Translations under genes and position numbers: made by a program
Notes under the pieces: model-generated
What the model was told of the DNA's origin: nothing
What the model saw: the letters and a program-made list of their open reading frames with translations, nothing else
Database searches by the model: none
NCBI RefSeq assembly: GCF_022828475.1
Contig: NZ_CP059557.1
Coordinates: 5,875,470-5,939,469, forward strand
Direction of reading: 5' to 3'
Length of the DNA: 64,000 bases
DNA from: Saccharopolyspora gloriosae
Lineage (GTDB): Bacteria > Actinomycetota > Actinomycetes > Mycobacteriales > Pseudonocardiaceae
In this document: positions 3,126 to 48,031 of the stretch, in pieces
How positions within the stretch are numbered: position 1 is the first letter of the stretch
Layout: every line of letters begins with the position of its first letter

Positions 3126-4130
3126 TCAGGGTCGCGAGTGGTAGCGCCCCTTGGCCTTCAGCCGCGCGTTGGGCAGCGTCGGCGCGGGCAACGTGAGCCC
3201 GTCGTAGCCGTGCACCGGGCCGAATCGGCGGTCGGTGAGATCGCTGTCGCGCTCACGTTCCCAGGCGGCGCGGGCGTCGACGATGTCCTCGTGGCTGCGG
3301 CCGACGAAGTTCCACCACATCACCAGGTCCTCGGTGAACGGCTCCCCGCCCAGCAACAGCGCCCGGCTCGCCACCTCCGCGTTCAGCCCCACCTCGCCGC
3401 GGCCGCGACCGAGGTACAGCATCGCTCCCACCGGAATGGCGACGCCCTCGACGGTCAGTCCGGGCGACAAGGCGAGGATCGCGTGCTCGAACTCCGGCTC
3501 CAGCACGACATCCAGCCGCCCGCCCGCGGAGATCTCCAGGCTCGCGCCGACCAGCGGCGTGTACGTCGTGGCCGGCGAGATCGCACCGTCGACCTCCCCG
3601 GCCAGGACGGTGATGGCGCCTTCCCGGAGTTCGTGCCTCGGCAGCGACGAGTGGAATTCGAACGCCGGTGAGATCTGCCGAGACCGCTCTGGAAGGGCCA
3701 CCCACAGCTGCGCCCCGTACAGGCGCGAGGAGTGATCCGGCGGGGACTGCTCGGAATGCGCGATGCCGTGCCCGGAGGTCATCAGCGAAAGATCCCCGGG
3801 ACGCACGAGCCTGCGGCTGCCCACGCTGTCCTGGTGCCGGACCTCGCCCTCGACCAGCCAGGTCACCGTCTGCAGCCCGATGTGCGGATGCGGCGGAACC
3901 TGCATCCCCGGCTGCCCGGCGATATCGCTCGGGCCGTACGAGTCGGCGAAGCACCAGGCCCCGACCATCCGCCTGCCGCGGTTGGGCAGTGCGCGCCGCA
4001 CCCGCATCGCCCGCGGCCCGCCCAGCGGCACGTCGCGCGGATGCAGCAGCTCGACGTCGGGCTCGGCGGCGACGGCGGTGTCCGCCGAGCACACCGTCTG
4101 CTCGGCCGGATCGTTCTCGATGTTGCTCAT
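3126..4130 (-). CDS. Pirin-family cupin protein
   Basis: A 334-residue bicupin. The pirin N-domain metal motif is clear: PPHPHIGLQTVTWLVEG near residues 80-96, then the SGHGIAHSEQ segment near 119-128, which together hold the three His and one Glu that bind iron or another metal. A pirin C-terminal domain follows (EPFTEDLVMWWNFVGRS). Some pirins are quercetin dioxygenases, others redox-sensing cofactors; the sequence does not decide. Its ATG overlaps the marR stop (ATGA, 4127-4130), so regulator and pirin are translated together. Confidence 0.92.
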   Translation of the reverse strand: MSNIENDPAEQTVCSADTAVAAEPDVELLHPRDVPLGGPRAMRVRRALPNRGRRMVGAWCFADSYGPSDIAGQPGMQVPPHPHIGLQTVTWLVEGEVRHQDSVGSRRLVRPGDLSLMTSGHGIAHSEQSPPDHSSRLYGAQLWVALPERSRQISPAFEFHSSLPRHELREGAITVLAGEVDGAISPATTYTPLVGASLEISAGGRLDVVLEPEFEHAILALSPGLTVEGVAIPVGAMLYLGRGRGEVGLNAEVASRALLLGGEPFTEDLVMWWNFVGRSHEDIVDARAAWERERDSDLTDRRFGPVHGYDGLTLPAPTLPNARLKAKGRYHSRP

Positions 4131-4636
4131 CGGTCGCTCCTGTCCGGTTCCACGGCGGCACCGGATTCGGCGTCCGCCTGCCCTGGTGCGGCGTGCAGGC
4201 GGTCTTGCAGACGAGTGAACACGCGAGCGAGCACGTGCAGCTCTTCCTCGTCCAGATCATCGGTGAACAACCGCTGCACGGTGTCGATGTGAGGGGGGTC
4301 CGCCGCGCGCAGCGCTTCGAGCCCGGTCGCGGTCAGCACCGCGTGATGAACGCGCCTGTCCTCCGGCGACACCTGCCGCAGCACCCAGCCGCGCCGCTCC
4401 ATCACCTTGATCTGATAGGTCAAGCGGCTCGGCGAGAACACCATGCGCGTGGCCAGTTCCCCCATCCGCAGCCGGTGCGCCGGGCTCTCCGACAGGATGA
4501 GCAGGACGTTGTAGTCCATCAGGCTCATCCCGGCGGACGCTCGCAGGTCCTCGTCGAGCCGCGTCTCCAGCAGCAAGCTCGCCTCGATGTACGGGCGCCA
4601 CGCTCTCCGCTGCAACGAATCTCGCCAAGCCATCAT
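4127..4636 (-). CDS. MarR-family transcriptional regulator
   Basis: A 169-residue winged-helix protein. It contains the MarR DNA-binding core: a recognition helix FSPSRLTYQIKVMERRGWVLR near residues 71-91 and a wing with SPEDRRVHHAVLTATG. The frame is open further upstream, but those codons run through a perfect palindromic operator. I therefore start at the ATG pair 4636/4633, just downstream of it; ATGs at 4648 and 4657 are possible. As the first gene of the six-gene redox operon it probably represses its own operon and is released by an electrophile, quinone or oxidant. Confidence 0.9.
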   Translation of the reverse strand: MMAWRDSLQRRAWRPYIEASLLLETRLDEDLRASAGMSLMDYNVLLILSESPAHRLRMGELATRMVFSPSRLTYQIKVMERRGWVLRQVSPEDRRVHHAVLTATGLEALRAADPPHIDTVQRLFTDDLDEEELHVLARVFTRLQDRLHAAPGQADAESGAAVEPDRSDR

Positions 4637-4654
4637 GCTGACGAGCATATCCAA

Positions 4655-4673
4655 CATTTCAAAAGTTGAAATG
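4655..4673. promoter_or_regulatory. MarR operator palindrome
   Basis: CATTTCAAAAGTTGAAATG is a perfect 8-bp inverted repeat around a 3-bp centre. It has the size and the TTGAA/TTCAA half-sites seen in MarR-family operators. It sits 19 bases before the regulator start, where a repressor would block the promoter of the whole operon. Confidence 0.75.
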
Positions 4674-4706
4674 CTTCCGGGCCGGCGACCACCACCGCCC
4701 GGACCG

Positions 4707-7151
4707 TCAGTCCTGGCGGGTCGCGATGGCCGGAGGTGTTCTGCTGGCACGCCACGACGGCAGGAGGCCGGCCGCTCCGGCGACCACCACGAGTCCGGCG
4801 CAGGCCGCCAGCAGCGCCGGGACCGGTATCGCCAGCGGCGCCTCCGGAACCAGCGCGGTGATCAGCAGCGTGCCCAGCGCGATCCCGTGCGGCACCCCGA
4901 AGACGACACCGAGCAGCCCGTACAGAGCGGACTCACCGACCCGGACGCCCAGCAGCCCGCTGCGGGACAGGCCCACCGCGCGGAGCATGCCGCTCTCCCG
5001 GCCGCGCTCGACGACCGACAGGCTCGCGGTGGTGCCGACGCCGACCAGGGCGACGAACACGGTCAGCGCGATCAGCGCCAACGCGCTGCCGGTGAGCTGC
5101 CCGACCAGGTCGGACTGCTTCGCGCGGAAGTCGTCGAGCACGCTGACCTCCAGCTCCGGCCCGGTGCTCCCGTGCGCGGCGACCGCGGACTGCGCCGCCG
5201 CCAGGTCCCCGCGGGCGGCGTCGAGCACGACGCCGGTCGGAGCCGGGGCGACGCCGAGGGCGTCGAGGTCGGACGGGTGCGCCAGCACCAGCGAGCCGCC
5301 GAGGCTCGACCCGACGACCACCGCCGCGACCCGCACCTCCCGGTCGCCGAGCCGGGCGGAATCGCCCGCGGCGAGCCGGGTCTTGCTCGCTAAGGCGTCC
5401 GACACGACGATCGTGCCGGGTCCCGCGTCCTGCAGGGACCCGTCGGCGGCGGTGCTCCCGGCCGAGCCGGACAGCCGGGTGATCGGCAGGTCCGACACCT
5501 CCAAGGTCGTCGGCCCGCTCGGCACCTCCAGCCGCAGCCGAGGCGCGCGGAACGGGACGACCGAGCGCAACGCGGGATCGGCCGCCAACGTCGCGGGCAG
5601 GTCGGCGGGCAGCACCTCCCCTTCCGGTGCGCGCACCTCGATGTCGGCGGGGTACTGCGCGGCCGAGCTCGCCTCGCTGTAATCGCGCAAGGTGCCTCCG
5701 GCGGTGAGCGCCGCGATGAGCAGCGTCGCGGCCAACGCCACCACCGAGGACACCGACGCCGCGCGACGCGGCATCCCGCCCGCGCTGCGCACCGCCAACG
5801 TCGCGACCGGGCCGAACCGCCGCAGCAACCGGTGCGCACCGGCGAGCACCGAACGTGCCAGCGCCGGCGCGAACGCCAGATATCCGCAGAAGCACGCGGC
5901 GACGGCCAGCACGCCGTACAGCATGAGATCTTCGGTGCTCCCGGCCGGGCGGTAGCGCGACAGCAGCCCACTGGACACGGCGAACACCACCAGCAGCACC
6001 GCCGCGACCAGCAGCGCGGCACCCAGCGCGGTCCGGAGCGCGGTCCTGGCCGCGCGCTCGCTCGCCCGCGTCGTCGACCGCAGCGCTTCCAGCGGGGACA
6101 CCCGTGCCGCGTCCCGGGCCGGGGCCAGCACGGCGAGCACCACCGCGAGCACGACGCCCACCACCACCGAACCCAGCACCAACGGCGAGGGGGTCACCGC
6201 CGAGACCGGCGCGACCAGCGGCACGAGCAGCCCGGCTCCGACGGCCAGCAGCGTCCCGGCACCTCCCGCGAGCAGGCCGGTGAGCGCGCCCTCGGCGACC
6301 AGCGCCCGGCGCAGCCCGCCCCTCGTGGCGCCCAACGCGCGCAGCATCGCGAGGTGCCGGGTGCGCTGCGCGAACACGATCCGGAAGGCGGACACCGCGA
6401 CCATGGTCGACGCGAGCGACGCCACCAGCACGAACGCGCCGAGCACCGCCGAGACCTTGTCGACCGTTTCCATGCTTTCGCTCAACTCGGCCTGTCGCGC
6501 GTTCTCTGCGGACTGCACGGCCAACGTCGTGGGCTGGGCGCTGCGCTGGATCGTGGGCAGGTCGCCGGTGAGATCAACGCGGGCCAGCTCCGCACCGGTG
6601 CGGGCGAGCACTTCCCGGTCCGGGGCGTAGAGCGCGAGCCCGTCCGCGGACGGGGAGTCCACCAGCGCGGTCACGGTGAGCGGCTGCGGTGGGCCACCAT
6701 CCGGGTCCGCGAACTCGACCTCGTCGCCGACGCGCAGGTCGAGCCGTTCGGCGGCGCGGGCGGACGCCGCCACTTCCCCCGGTGAACGCGGATACGCGCC
6801 CTCGTCCACCTGGACCCGGCTCAGCGGCCCCGCTCCGGGATCGGCGGTGAGGTCGACCTCCACGGCTCCGACCAGGCCCGATCCGCTCACCCGGCCGGTC
6901 GATCCGGTCACGCCCGCCAGTCCCTCAGCCCGATCCAGCTCGGCGGGCCCGAACCCGGACGGGGAGCGCACGACCGCCGACGCCGCCTCCGGGATCGACG
7001 TCAGATCATCGGTGATCGTGCGCAGCGCGATGTCCCGGCCGAGCAGCGTGGCGGTGATGAAGAAGGCGGCCACGGCGATCGTGACGCCGCACAGCAGCAG
7101 TCGCACCGGAGCGCGCCGGACGGTGCGCAGGTGCGGGACGACGGCGCTCAT
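4707..7151 (-). CDS. ABC transporter permease with two FtsX-like domains
   Basis: An 814-residue permease with the MacB/LolE-like duplicated layout. A first membrane helix (about 18-40) is followed by an external domain, three helices with the FtsX signature around residues 230-360, two central helices, a second external domain (about 470-670) and a final three-helix FtsX domain (about 690-805). Its start overlaps the stop of the ATPase gene as ATGA at 7148-7151. Such exporters move lipids, peptides or antimicrobials out of the membrane. The divergent histidine kinase/response regulator pair suggests induction by an envelope-active compound, but the substrate is unknown. Confidence 0.9.
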   Translation of the reverse strand: MSAVVPHLRTVRRAPVRLLLCGVTIAVAAFFITATLLGRDIALRTITDDLTSIPEAASAVVRSPSGFGPAELDRAEGLAGVTGSTGRVSGSGLVGAVEVDLTADPGAGPLSRVQVDEGAYPRSPGEVAASARAAERLDLRVGDEVEFADPDGGPPQPLTVTALVDSPSADGLALYAPDREVLARTGAELARVDLTGDLPTIQRSAQPTTLAVQSAENARQAELSESMETVDKVSAVLGAFVLVASLASTMVAVSAFRIVFAQRTRHLAMLRALGATRGGLRRALVAEGALTGLLAGGAGTLLAVGAGLLVPLVAPVSAVTPSPLVLGSVVVGVVLAVVLAVLAPARDAARVSPLEALRSTTRASERAARTALRTALGAALLVAAVLLVVFAVSSGLLSRYRPAGSTEDLMLYGVLAVAACFCGYLAFAPALARSVLAGAHRLLRRFGPVATLAVRSAGGMPRRAASVSSVVALAATLLIAALTAGGTLRDYSEASSAAQYPADIEVRAPEGEVLPADLPATLAADPALRSVVPFRAPRLRLEVPSGPTTLEVSDLPITRLSGSAGSTAADGSLQDAGPGTIVVSDALASKTRLAAGDSARLGDREVRVAAVVVGSSLGGSLVLAHPSDLDALGVAPAPTGVVLDAARGDLAAAQSAVAAHGSTGPELEVSVLDDFRAKQSDLVGQLTGSALALIALTVFVALVGVGTTASLSVVERGRESGMLRAVGLSRSGLLGVRVGESALYGLLGVVFGVPHGIALGTLLITALVPEAPLAIPVPALLAACAGLVVVAGAAGLLPSWRASRTPPAIATRQD

Positions 7152-30059: not shown

Positions 30060-31339
30060 CCACTCCCGACTCCACCGGAGACAGCCCGATGACATCCCAG
30101 CCCGCCCGCACCGGCGCCGCACTGCTCGACGAACTGCACGCCGCCCTGACCCGCTACGTGATCCTGCCCAGCCCGCACGCCCTGGACGCCGTCGTGCTCT
30201 GGACCGCCGCCAGCCATGCACAACTCGCCTGGGCACACGCCCCGCGCCTGGTCATCCGTGCACCGGAGAAGCGCTGCGGGAAGTCCCGACTGCTCGACGT
30301 CGTGGAGGCGACCTGCCATGACCCGTTCCTGACCGTCAACGCCAGCCCGGCGGCCGTCTACCGCTCCATCACTGACGACCCGCCCACGATGCTCGTCGAC
30401 GAAGCAGACACGATCTTCGGCCCGAACGCCGATGGCAACGAAGATCTTCGCGGTCTGCTCAACGCCGGGCACCAGCGCAACCGCCCGGCCAAGCGCTACG
30501 ACGCCTCCACCAACCGGGTCGAGTCGATCGCCACGTTCGCGATGGCCGCACTCGCCGGAATCGGCACCATGCCCGACACCATCGAAGACCGCGCCGTCAT
30601 CATCCGCATGCGCCGCCGAGCACCCGGCGAAAAAGTCGCCCCCTACCGCCACCGCCGCGACCGCCCCGCGCTCGTGGAACTCGCCGGACGGATCAGCGAC
30701 TGGCTCCGCACCGACCTGGCCCAACTCGAACGCGCCGAACCCCCGATGCCCATCGAGGACCGCGCCGCCGACACCTGGGAACCGCTGATCGCTGTCGCCG
30801 ATCACGCGGGCGGTGACTGGCCCGACCGGGCACGGCAAGCGGCCCTGACGCTGATCGCCGAGTCCCAGGGCGACAACGAAGGAACGCTGCGCACTCGGCT
30901 GCTGGTGGACTGCCGCACCGCGTTCGGTGATCAGTACGAGATCGCCAGCGGGGAACTCATCCGTCAGCTCAATGCCGACCCAGAAGCGCCGTGGCGGGAC
31001 TACGGGGCTCAAGGGCTCACTCAGGCCAAGCTCGCCCGGCTGCTCGGAGAGTTCGACATCCGCTCGGGAAACGTTCGCTTCCCGGACGGCAGCCAGTCCA
31101 AGGGCTACCGACGGGCGGACTTCCTGGACGCCTGGACCCGCTATTGCCCGCCCCCTGGGGGTGAGCCGTCCCGGCCGTCCCAAGCGTCGCCGCCCAGCTC
31201 AACGCGGGACGCCTTGCACCCCTGGGACGGATCAAAGCGTCCCACCGAACCAAACCGTCCCAGCCTGACCAGCATCGCAACGCCTGGGACGGCTGGGACG
31301 GACAACCCCGCCAACACCACCGAGAGGGGAGCAGCGTGA
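30056..31339 (+). CDS. DUF3631 ATPase, replication helper of the element
   Basis: A 427-residue protein. A P-loop, RAPEKRCGKSRLLD, near residues 66-79, with Walker B TMLVDEADTIF near 108-118, precedes the DUF3631 domain (about 180-350, with DRPALVELAGRISDWL). The last 70 residues are Pro/Ser-rich and disordered. The ATG overlaps the Prim-Pol stop (ATGA, 30056-30059). DUF3631 proteins accompany Prim-Pol replicases in AICEs and may load or act as helicase; that role is inferred. Confidence 0.85.
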   Translation: MTTPDSTGDSPMTSQPARTGAALLDELHAALTRYVILPSPHALDAVVLWTAASHAQLAWAHAPRLVIRAPEKRCGKSRLLDVVEATCHDPFLTVNASPAAVYRSITDDPPTMLVDEADTIFGPNADGNEDLRGLLNAGHQRNRPAKRYDASTNRVESIATFAMAALAGIGTMPDTIEDRAVIIRMRRRAPGEKVAPYRHRRDRPALVELAGRISDWLRTDLAQLERAEPPMPIEDRAADTWEPLIAVADHAGGDWPDRARQAALTLIAESQGDNEGTLRTRLLVDCRTAFGDQYEIASGELIRQLNADPEAPWRDYGAQGLTQAKLARLLGEFDIRSGNVRFPDGSQSKGYRRADFLDAWTRYCPPPGGEPSRPSQASPPSSTRDALHPWDGSKRPTEPNRPSLTSIATPGTAGTDNPANTTERGAA

Positions 31340-45665: not shown

Positions 45666-47315
45666 TCACGACGGGCGGAGCAGGACCGGCCTGCCGGTGA
45701 TCTCCATCGGCTGATCCTGGTCCACGATCTCGGAGGAGCCGTCCAAGCGCTGCACCACCTCGGAGCCCGGTTCCGGCGGTAGCCACGCGGTGCCCTCGTG
45801 GGTCCAGCGGATGACGAACCGCTCGCCGCCCCGGTCGAACCGGCACTGCCAGACGTTCTCCGGCAGCAGCGCCCCACCCCCATGACCGCAGGAATTGATC
45901 CGCGCACCGCGCAGCCAGTTCTGGAACTCACCGACGAACCGACCGGCCTTGGTCGGCGGGAAACCGGCCGCCTGCAACGGGATCGGCACCCGCCCACCGC
46001 CCCAGCTGTAGAAGTAGACGCGGTCGTACCACAGCCACAAGCTCACCAGGTACAAGCGAACCGCGTGGTCGGCGGCCCGTTCCGGCTCGACCTTCGGATC
46101 GAACGGGTCCGCGAAGCTGACGCCCGTGTTCCACATCGACGGGTTCGCGTGGGCGTTGTGCAGGGTTCGTTCGATGTCGGCACCGAGTTCGAACATCGTC
46201 TCGGGCGGGTCGGCGGCCTTCCGCGGATGCAGCTTCACCCCGCCCGCATCGCAGTGGTCGTAGCCGCGCAGCTCGGCGAACCGCGCCAGGAAGGCGTGGT
46301 TGGCGGGCTCCCAGAGCTCCCCGAACCCGGGGCAGACGACCGTGGCACCGGGGGCGACCTCCCGGATCACGCGACTGCCGATCTCGGTCATCTCGACCAG
46401 CGTCTCCACCGACCCGGTGAAGTACGGCGGCCCGAAGTCCCACAGTTCGAAGGCCTCCACCCGCCCGGCCGAGCGCGTGGCCACGGCGCGCACGAAGCGC
46501 TCCCAATCGTCCAGGTCGTCCGGCGGACCGATCCGCGAATCGTCGTTGTACGCCGACGTCCCGCCCTCGGGAGCCGCCCAGCCCGGCGTGCCACCGAAGG
46601 TGAACACGAGCGGCAGCCCCGCGTTGCCCGCGGCCCGGACCAGCCGATCGAAGGTGGTCCAGTCGTACCTGCCGCGCTCGGGTTCCAGGCTCTGCCAGCG
46701 GGTCTCGGATTCCCACAACCGCGCTGATCCGACCGGGAATCCGGGCATCATGCCGGTCGCGCTGTTCATCGTCACACCGACGAACGCGGGGTCGATCGGC
46801 TGCGGCTGCAGCGTCCAGTCCGGCGCGGAGACCTCGGCCGGCGCGGAGGTCGGCGGCGGGCCGGCGCGAAGCACGTACGCGACCAGCAGGAACGTCGCGA
46901 GGAAAGTAGCGACCGCCGCCGGGAACCACCACCACCGCGCTCTCGCGGCCGGCCCGTCCTGCGGACGCGGGACGGGCCGCTCAACCACCCCGGAATCGCC
47001 CGGCCCCTCGGGACGTTCCGCCATTTCCGGAATCACGGCGTCGCCCTGCATCGCGGTCCCGTCCGGTCCGGAGTCGCGGTCCGGCCCTTCCCATAAGCGA
47101 TGCAGCTTCGACAGCTCCGCCCTGCTCGCCCCGCACACCGTGGCGATCGATTCGACCGCCCCGAAGGTCTGCGGGATTCCCTGCCCGCTGCAATAGCGGT
47201 GCACCGTGGATCTGCTCAGGTGAGTTCGCGCCGCGATCTGCTCATAGCTGTACCCGCTCCGCCGTTTCAGGTCGTCGAGCAGTTCCGCAACGGCATTGCC
47301 GCGTCCCGGCGCCAT
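45666..47315 (-). CDS. Transmembrane HTH protein with external pseudo-glycosidase domain
   Basis: A 549-residue protein with an unusual order of domains. Residues 8-75 form a cytoplasmic XRE-like HTH (YSYEQIAARTHLSRSTVHRY). A Pro-rich linker leads to a single membrane helix at 128-150. Residues 175-465 form a TIM-barrel glycosidase fold like GH39/GH5 (clan A) families, and the C-terminus is a beta module. Where clan A enzymes have WNEP on strand 4 this has LWDFGPP (292-296), and where they have the nucleophile W-x-T-E it has WNTG (395-398). Both catalytic Glu are absent, so it probably senses sugars rather than cutting them. The ATG at 47315 has GAGGGGAG upstream. Confidence 0.82.
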   Translation of the reverse strand: MAPGRGNAVAELLDDLKRRSGYSYEQIAARTHLSRSTVHRYCSGQGIPQTFGAVESIATVCGASRAELSKLHRLWEGPDRDSGPDGTAMQGDAVIPEMAERPEGPGDSGVVERPVPRPQDGPAARARWWWFPAAVATFLATFLLVAYVLRAGPPPTSAPAEVSAPDWTLQPQPIDPAFVGVTMNSATGMMPGFPVGSARLWESETRWQSLEPERGRYDWTTFDRLVRAAGNAGLPLVFTFGGTPGWAAPEGGTSAYNDDSRIGPPDDLDDWERFVRAVATRSAGRVEAFELWDFGPPYFTGSVETLVEMTEIGSRVIREVAPGATVVCPGFGELWEPANHAFLARFAELRGYDHCDAGGVKLHPRKAADPPETMFELGADIERTLHNAHANPSMWNTGVSFADPFDPKVEPERAADHAVRLYLVSLWLWYDRVYFYSWGGGRVPIPLQAAGFPPTKAGRFVGEFQNWLRGARINSCGHGGGALLPENVWQCRFDRGGERFVIRWTHEGTAWLPPEPGSEVVQRLDGSSEIVDQDQPMEITGRPVLLRPS

Positions 47316-47650
47316 CTCGCGCTCCCCTCGCGTTCCGATGGCCGGGGAGTCTCCCACGGGACGCCGTCCCAGCGGCCCCGATTCATCTCAAGACGGCCCG
47401 ATCAAGCCTGGTCGCAACAGACATTTCATCCCATCGTCCCAAGATCGTCCCAGCGCGTTGTCCCACCGGAATTCGCCCGGTGAAGGTGTGTCCACGCGGT
47501 TCGACACCGCTCACTGGGGGTCGCTGGGGGTGAGGTCGAGCGGTCACGAGGTGCCGGCCGCACCGAGTGACCGCTCGACCGGAATCCGTTGCCGAAGCGA
47601 CTCGCGGGATGGATTTCAGCGATCAACGGAACGGATGAAAAGGAGCGAAC
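47316..47650. other. Intergenic region with a 47-bp interrupted palindrome
   Basis: 335 bases between the membrane HTH gene and the exported protein gene, which diverge. Arms 47534-47547 and 47567-47580 are perfect 14-bp complements (GGTCGAGCGGTCAC). Inside them GGTGC/GCACC form a further 5 pairs after a GA/GA mismatch. It could be an operator or an RNA stem in the 5' leader of the rightward gene. Confidence 0.7.
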
Positions 47651-48031
47651 ATGGGCAAAGCGAAACGGGCGATGGTGGCGACCGCAATGGCGGCGAGCCT
47701 GGCATCGGTGCTCGGGGGTCCCGTCGCGAGCGCGGCGCACAACGCGGCTCCGGCGCAGGACGTCGCCCCGCTCAGCAAGTGCGGTGACCACGGGCCGATC
47801 GACATCCCCGGCGGGAGGGCCGACTTCAAGCTCACCTGCAAGGGCGGCAAGATCACGATCACGGGCTGGGTGCTGGACACCGCCGCGAACGGGAAGTGCG
47901 TCTGGGCCTACGGAAAAGTAGGAAACAACGATTTCAAGAGCGGGAAGGCCTGCCCGAAGGGGAAGTCCGTCAACTTCAAGGCCACCGGCAAGGGCAGCAC
48001 CGCCAAGGTCTACCTCAAGGACGACGGCTGA
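47651..48031 (+). CDS. Small secreted Cys-containing protein
   Basis: A 126-residue exported protein. The signal peptide runs to about residue 29 (LGGPVASAA). The mature domain is Lys/Gly-rich and beta-like with four Cys (SKCGD, LTCKGG, GKCVWA, KACPKG), which could form two disulfides. No known family recognised. AAAGGAG precedes the ATG. It is encoded divergently from the membrane HTH/pseudo-glycosidase protein, which could control it. Confidence 0.72.
   Translation: MGKAKRAMVATAMAASLASVLGGPVASAAHNAAPAQDVAPLSKCGDHGPIDIPGGRADFKLTCKGGKITITGWVLDTAANGKCVWAYGKVGNNDFKSGKACPKGKSVNFKATGKGSTAKVYLKDDG

Follow-up and report, generated by a model that had tools for sequence, protein, structure and literature searches.

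Transmembrane transcription regulators (TTRs) form a recognised and widespread class, most members of which pass through the membrane once according to a survey of the class (PMC10269533). In Vibrio cholerae, a pair of transmembrane regulators is described for chitin-induced transformation (PMC11856585). Domains related to glycoside hydrolases are found in sensors of another kind, the RsgI anti-sigma factors of Clostridium thermocellum, whose outside GH10 domain or CBM is reported to sense polysaccharide (PMC12203970), as well as in the plant proteins BZR1-BAM7 and BZR1-BAM8, described as transcription factors fused to an inactive beta-amylase domain (PMC6394054). The window analysed here, a stretch of 64,000 nucleotides from Saccharopolyspora gloriosae (contig NZ_CP059557.1, positions 5,875,470 to 5,939,469), encodes a protein with a DNA-binding domain and a membrane helix in one chain, the combination that marks the TTR class (Table 1). 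The protein is probably a transmembrane one-component transcription regulator, with a dead GH39-like barrel as receptor (most likely for a glycan) and an HTH domain that would act on TGGGAC repeats to control the adjacent gene for a secreted protein.

Table 1. Features of the regulator locus (positions counted from the first nucleotide of the window).
Feature	Position	Strand	Basis or remark
Regulator gene	45666..47315	-	Product of 549 aa: HTH_31, single membrane helix, GH39-like barrel lacking both catalytic Glu, beta domain at the C-terminus
Cytoplasmic HTH_31 (Xre-type) domain, residues 10-70	47106..47288	-	Pfam PF13560, E=2e-13
Membrane helix, residues 137-155, Arg/Lys N-terminal of helix	46851..46907	-	Hydropathy scan
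Predicted extracellular GH39-like beta/alpha barrel, residues ~166-468	45912..46820	-	AlphaFold2; best Foldseek match PslG (5bx9)
C-terminal beta domain, residues ~472-549, near-invariant Cys476 and Cys491 (98/99 each)	45669..45902	-	AlphaFold2 model, homologue alignment
Site 1 (LWDFGPP, residues 291-297), at the end of strand 4	46425..46445	-	Acid/base position F294; enzymes have W-N-E-P/A
Site 2 (WNTG, residues 395-398), at the end of strand 7	46122..46133	-	Nucleophile position G398; enzymes have W-x-T-E
Candidate operator, direct repeats	47428..47465	-	TGGGAC at 47460-47465, 47447-47452 and 47436-47441; TGGGAT at 47428-47433
Further TGGGAC copy, candidate operator region	47366..47371	-	
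Divergent gene for small secreted protein (126 aa, signal peptide), putative target	47651..48031	+	

The regulator ORF starts with the ATG at 47315, and an alternative GTG start is possible 14 codons further upstream. An AlphaFold2 model of the 549-aa protein, calculated from 49 sequences, reached a mean pLDDT of 85.7 and exceeded 90 over most of the extracellular part. In the HTH region it shows five helices, all within residues 5-76, and it puts the membrane helix at residues 131-150, close to the single hydrophobic segment seen in the hydropathy scan. In the cytoplasmic part, Pfam returned HTH_31 and weaker HTH models and no anti-sigma family; HTH_25 (RodZ-type) was not among the matches of the protein, and Trans_reg_C and BTAD, the two domains that would mark a SARP, were both missing. 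A hydrophobic segment ahead of the barrel, with at least two Lys or Arg residues among the preceding 15, was detected by hydropathy scan in 45/45 homologues. Since arginines precede the membrane segment, the C-terminal part is predicted to lie outside, so that the protein would have an N-in, C-out topology with an exposed barrel. The cysteines of this part (Cys328, Cys355, Cys476 and Cys491) are kept in 98-99 of 99 homologues. Pfam, hydropathy, AlphaFold2 and Foldseek thus agree on the plan proposed in the first-pass annotation, in which an HTH domain, one membrane helix and a barrel are joined in one protein.

Homologues were collected from 297 genomes of the window's family, 75 of which gave matches, HTH-only ones included. 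Forty-five ORFs (the window's among them) passed a full-sequence threshold of E <1e-90; weaker or broken ones were dropped, and fragmentary copies (L074 and L082, for example, with E >1e-90) were removed ahead of the homologue count. In named genomes, an alignment-based scan led to 157 confirmed relatives. The best 80 of these 157 were taken and came from Saccharopolyspora, Amycolatopsis, Lentzea, Actinokineospora, Streptomyces, Nonomuraea, Sphaerisporangium, Dactylosporangium, Embleya and other genera. HTH and barrel are covered by one ORF in 80/80 relatives, although only to query residue 486 in L158. A single-sequence search of genome contigs yielded 28 pattern matches, none of them confirmed as a relative. 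After removal of duplicates, the homologue set comprised 99 distinct proteins. The genome of the window contains a single copy of the regulator. Some other genomes hold copies that match piecewise, in part with stops (G230:C1:466077-467533, G140:C43:324977-326083, G072:C22 and G058:C2), for which reason repeated decay of the gene is suspected.

The barrel is faint in sequence profiles (Pfam GH42, E=7e-4, below cut-off; a beta-galactosidase in the PDB, E=2.8e-5). Sequence searches of Pfam, NCBIfam and the PDB lacked the strength to assign it, so that structure was needed. The model contains an eight-stranded beta/alpha barrel (strands at residues 179-183, 197-200, 236-239, 288-290, 325-331, 357-360, 393-396 and 432-438). 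Its top Foldseek match was PslG of Pseudomonas aeruginosa (5bx9; E=1.9e-19, TM 0.71 on the target, 18% identity), and the best four were PslG/GH39 entries (5bx9, 4zn2, 9g17, which includes a pentasaccharide, and 5jvk; TM up to 0.72 on the target), the fourth being a Bacteroides GH39 enzyme. The fold is therefore that of GH39 and clan A. Clan-A enzymes hold their two catalytic Glu residues after strands 4 and 7, and this pair defines retaining catalysis. Both sites of the window protein lie after the same strands. The first-pass annotation had proposed structure prediction and a survey of homologues as checks on the loss of both residues. The WNTG motif was numbered correctly there, while LWDFGPP, placed at 292-296, is actually at 291-297.

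The survey likewise bore out the proposed loss. No Glu occurs in column 294 (Leu 32, Met 24, remainder mixed) or column 398 (Gly 98, Ser 1) in any of the 99 distinct homologues, the window's counted, and the surrounding motifs are kept, with Glu290, Trp292 and Trp395 present in 99/99 and Thr397 in 96/99. Some Glu is found near one of the sites in 32/99 rows, including 12/99 at alignment column 296; none of these falls in a catalytic column and none is conserved. A complete absence from both columns argues that the loss is neither chance nor a sequencing artefact. A broken fragment outside the set (L185) has Asp at column 398.

Neither the recurrent small secreted neighbour nor the repeated TGGGAC boxes between or in front of the gene pair was part of the first-pass annotation; both are new in this follow-up. 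The divergent 126-aa protein gave no match in Pfam (E up to 0.1), NCBIfam or PADLOC, a Pertactin match at E=0.12 lying below cut-off. The sole congener with the regulator (L032) has a secreted protein of the same family at nearly equal distance (334 vs 335 bp). A secretory lipase gene (LIP, PF03583; 48136-49536, minus strand) adjoins the pair in the window, and a homologue of it stands beside the regulator in L032. A second copy of the small secreted protein, 35% identical, is encoded at G000:C1:751907-752269; as the genome has only one regulator, this copy is unlinked. A role in defence found no support, as PADLOC matched the HTH region only weakly (E=7e-4).

To count as a neighbour under the strict rule, a gene had to be divergent, to encode 70-300 aa with a signal peptide, to have coding base composition and to lie within 450 bp. 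Such a gene accompanies 39/99 regulators vs 23/431 control genes of the same loci. A looser signal-peptide rule (61/99 vs 133/477) let in spurious frames and was replaced by the strict one. Profiles sorted many of the neighbours into family A (33 matches), family B (15, one of them 4 kb off) and the window's own family W (3). Comparison of A, B and W with hhalign gave no credible relation, the best score (A-W, probability 16) resting on 16 signal-peptide columns, and none of the members tested matched a Pfam or NCBIfam model above cut-off. A model of a family-A protein had a mean pLDDT of 72.9 (76-92 per ten-residue block in the mature part, with one block at 66) and had no PDB match with E ≤0.001. 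Genes of family A, B or W lie within 2.5 kb of the regulator in 48/99 loci. When each cluster at 60% barrel identity is reduced to a single row, 8/15 have a secreted neighbour. Apart from the secreted protein, no constant partner was found: the largest other neighbour cluster spans 9/94 loci, leaving aside the regulator itself and a 12-locus cluster that is largely family B (five loci without a called central gene, L037, L041, L062, L094 and L122, were omitted from this clustering). Other neighbours include a ricin-like lectin, just under the Pfam cut-off, and a PLD-like protein. Family A also occurs away from these loci: of the 46 matches listed from the 297 genomes, 15 stand beside the regulator. 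The barrel profile found no match in 20 loci with unlinked secreted-protein genes (19 family A, 1 family W).

With so frequent a neighbour, the ectodomain might sense, in an autocrine loop, the small secreted protein (by itself or in complex with a glycan) and not an environmental polysaccharide. This is possible, if somewhat unlikely. When genes of families A, B or W within 2.5 kb and strict divergent secreted genes are taken together, the secreted neighbour is the commonest partner found (62/99 loci); it is drawn from at least three families without credible sequence relation, and its promoter carries the box array. As a precedent, the secreted HbpS of Streptomyces is described as working with the sensor kinase SenS (PMC4991794). 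On the other side, the partner is swapped among unrelated families while the barrel stays recognisable, and 37/99 loci have no counted secreted neighbour at all.

Across the whole window, TGGGAC is found at chance frequency (39 vs 41.5); six copies on both strands, within 123 bases at 31177-31299, may be part of a coding sequence. Upstream of the regulators the picture differs. A k-mer comparison of 350-bp upstream regions gave TGGGAC as the top six-mer and TGGGACG as the top seven-mer; TGGGAC/GTCCCA was present in 63/99 regions vs 12.7 expected and TGGGACG/CGTCCCA in 55 vs 5.5 expected. Copies within 400 bp point 120 to 10 in one direction, and spacings of 8-9 and 42-44 bp recur. TGGGAC precedes 63/99 regulators vs 69/888 control genes, and box pairs are found at 42-44 bp in 32 regulators vs 5 controls, at 8-9 bp in 25 vs 2, and at either spacing in 43 vs 5, comparisons whose Fisher values overstate independence because the sequences are related. 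Among single representatives of the clusters at 60% barrel identity, TGGGAC is still found in 10/15 and the pair in 7/15. A reversed-motif control was not enriched (7/99 regulators vs 79/888 controls). No simple rule connects the type of recognition helix to the presence of TGGGAC.

The boxes follow the secreted-protein gene. At regulator loci, GTCCCA was found upstream of 37/48 genes of families A, B and W (paired in 33), vs 40/800 control genes (paired in 3). GTCCCA stands in front of 12/16 secreted-protein genes that are not divergent, and only 3/18 of the corresponding regulators have a box within 300 bp. (Two start-codon rules gave 14/18 and, with genes lacking a usable start omitted, 12/16; the lower figure is used.) As the boxes thus accompany non-divergent genes that should have a promoter of their own, they are assigned to the secreted-protein gene wherever it is found at the regulator's locus. 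The link between a box pair upstream of the regulator and a strict neighbour is loose (both 20, pair only 23, neighbour only 19, neither 37). Boxes in such own promoters mostly lie ~90-180 bp before the start codon, a position that makes activation of the secreted-protein gene appear more likely than repression. In the genome of the window, a loose repeat pattern had 17 matches, three of them at the regulator locus, vs 9 for a reversed control, so that a wider regulon is not indicated.

It is unlikely that the boxes are bound by some other regulator, or are a promoter feature, and that the membrane protein acts otherwise. In favour of this explanation, an unlinked family-A gene (L226; G192:C21, ~4959-5432) carries the full box array (-133, -91, -83) with no such membrane regulator within its 10 kb, and 36/99 regulators, among them the close homologues L033, L034 and L035, have no exact TGGGAC within 400 bp. 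Three observations speak against it: the pair is rare before control genes; boxes precede only 2/20 unlinked members of the secreted families (paired in both), one of which stands beside a lectin-type HTH membrane regulator; and a variant with a SARP-type N-terminus has no TGGGAC upstream, as expected if HTH_31 reads the boxes, albeit in one case.

This variant (L073; G117:C8, 7176-9413) carries Trans_reg_C and BTAD domains (BTAD E=3.5e-44) instead of HTH_31 and continues with a membrane segment and the Glu-less barrel; a family-A secreted protein is encoded divergently. A swap for a SARP unit would be hard to explain unless the N-terminus were DNA-binding, although it was seen in one of 99 cases. 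Direct gene regulation from the membrane, as suggested in the first-pass annotation, is supported in part, namely by the conserved plan, the SARP swap and boxes that follow the target; that the HTH binds these boxes is a step we infer.

The outside domain is exchanged as well. In L242, a single-pass regulator (3246-4736) adjoins a family-A secreted protein (4779-5420) with boxes and consists of an HTH_31-like domain (E=0.013, below cut-off), a membrane helix and a ricin-B lectin (PF14200, E=9e-17). Relatives of this lectin type occur in 7/297 genomes at E 1e-15 or better, in five of them (that of L242 included) over most of the length; loci with such relatives are L246-L249. A divergent ORF with a signal peptide is present in four of these five and belongs to family A in three (two by profile, one by eye). 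Copies of TGGGAC lie near 4/5 of the loci, at spacings of 10 and 25 in two (for L245 only the spacings were used), vs 8-9 and 42-44 at barrel-type loci. The replacement of the barrel by a lectin favours carbohydrate recognition.

RodZ proteins have an HTH_25-type domain, one membrane helix and an outside domain, and they have a role in cell shape. On the strength of this common order of parts, the window protein might be RodZ-like, with an HTH that binds protein, a barrel that serves as cell-wall scaffold and no role in transcription. This is very improbable, given that a SARP DNA-binding domain can replace the HTH, that the gene is sporadic, unlike a shape gene (2/6 genomes of the genus), and that boxes and target co-locate.

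A class-wide search with the barrel alone gave matches in 63/394 genomes. Among the barrels from L186-L209, 31/31 have Glu in both catalytic columns, in motifs such as WNEP/WNEA and W-x-T-E, as do five more distant relatives (L075-L079). The family HTH profile was not matched at E up to 1 in any of the 31 ORFs, many of which have N-termini resembling signal peptides or lipoprotein leaders. Some of these Glu-bearing proteins are encoded as tandem pairs (L194, L198, L202, L205 and L206). A tree was calculated from 73 rows, comprising 38 randomly chosen regulators, that of the window, the SARP form, the 31 Glu-bearing relatives and two outgroup proteins. The 40 regulators, SARP form included, form one group with 100/100 support and a long branch (1.01), and the 31 others form a group with 93/82 support; a program warning of long branches meeting makes the rooting less sure than the split. 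As the nearest HTH-less relatives examined keep both Glu residues, the dead receptor appears to derive from a glycosidase, an enzyme having become a sensor. There is only a very slight chance that the protein is a membrane-tethered active glycosidase relying on other residues: Glu290 and Glu372 are invariant in 99/99 homologues, which makes a migrated catalytic residue formally possible, but both catalytic Glu are lost in all of these homologues and kept in all 31 HTH-less relatives, and the latter, with their catalytic pair intact, vary in the columns of Glu290 (Gln 21, Glu 10) and Glu372 (Glu in only 12). Asp356 is nearly invariant.

In the regulatory mechanism that we favour, the dead barrel would bind a ligand outside the cell, binding would alter the state of the tethered HTH on the TGGGAC direct repeats, and transcription of the adjacent small secreted-protein gene would change with it. 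The descent of the barrel and the analogy with the lectin type make a glycan the most likely ligand. More tentatively, and with some doubt, the loci may belong to a modular actinobacterial system in which dead-glycosidase or ricin-type lectin receptors, one membrane helix, swappable DNA-binding domains and TGGGAC repeats are combined with readily exchanged secreted proteins whose target or binding partner would be that same surface ligand. If true, the loci would encode a complete circuit for surface recognition, perhaps of neighbouring cells.

The change from enzyme to receptor is unusually clear-cut in this family, with relatives that have both catalytic residues and regulators that have neither and form one group on the tree. 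At the locus, the predicted DNA site, target gene and receptor lie close together, which makes surface sensing by soil bacteria directly testable, and it brings a function for secreted families A, B and W within reach. It recurs in Saccharopolyspora, Amycolatopsis, Lentzea, Streptomyces, Nonomuraea, Dactylosporangium and others.

The architecture was at first not known to be described. No paper on the precise combination or on the boxes was found among the full-text literature matches listed; the protein is less isolated than was thought, as comparison with TTRs, RsgI and BZR1-BAM makes clear. Described TTRs such as ToxR, CadC and TfoS resemble it in having a DNA-binding domain, a membrane helix and an outside domain in one chain. 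TfoS is the name of the chitin-linked transmembrane regulator of V. cholerae. PslG and the GH39 enzymes, its closest structural matches, use two catalytic Glu residues, whereas the window protein has neither. The lectin-type regulators share its plan, its secreted neighbour and its TGGGAC boxes, with a lectin instead of the barrel. Unlike the window protein, TTRs with a glycosidase ectodomain are not mentioned in the main text of the survey of the class, where 'glycos', 'hydrolase' and 'XRE' have 0 occurrences (PMC10269533). RsgI, as described, is likewise a membrane receptor with a GH-type outside part, but its inside part is an anti-sigma domain and not a DNA-binding one. For BZR1-BAM7 and BZR1-BAM8, no membrane part is described, the domain is of another GH family, and one catalytic Glu is retained. 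Judged by the papers listed, the precise combination may be new; transmembrane regulators, GH-domain sensors and transcription factors with an inactive amylase domain were already known.
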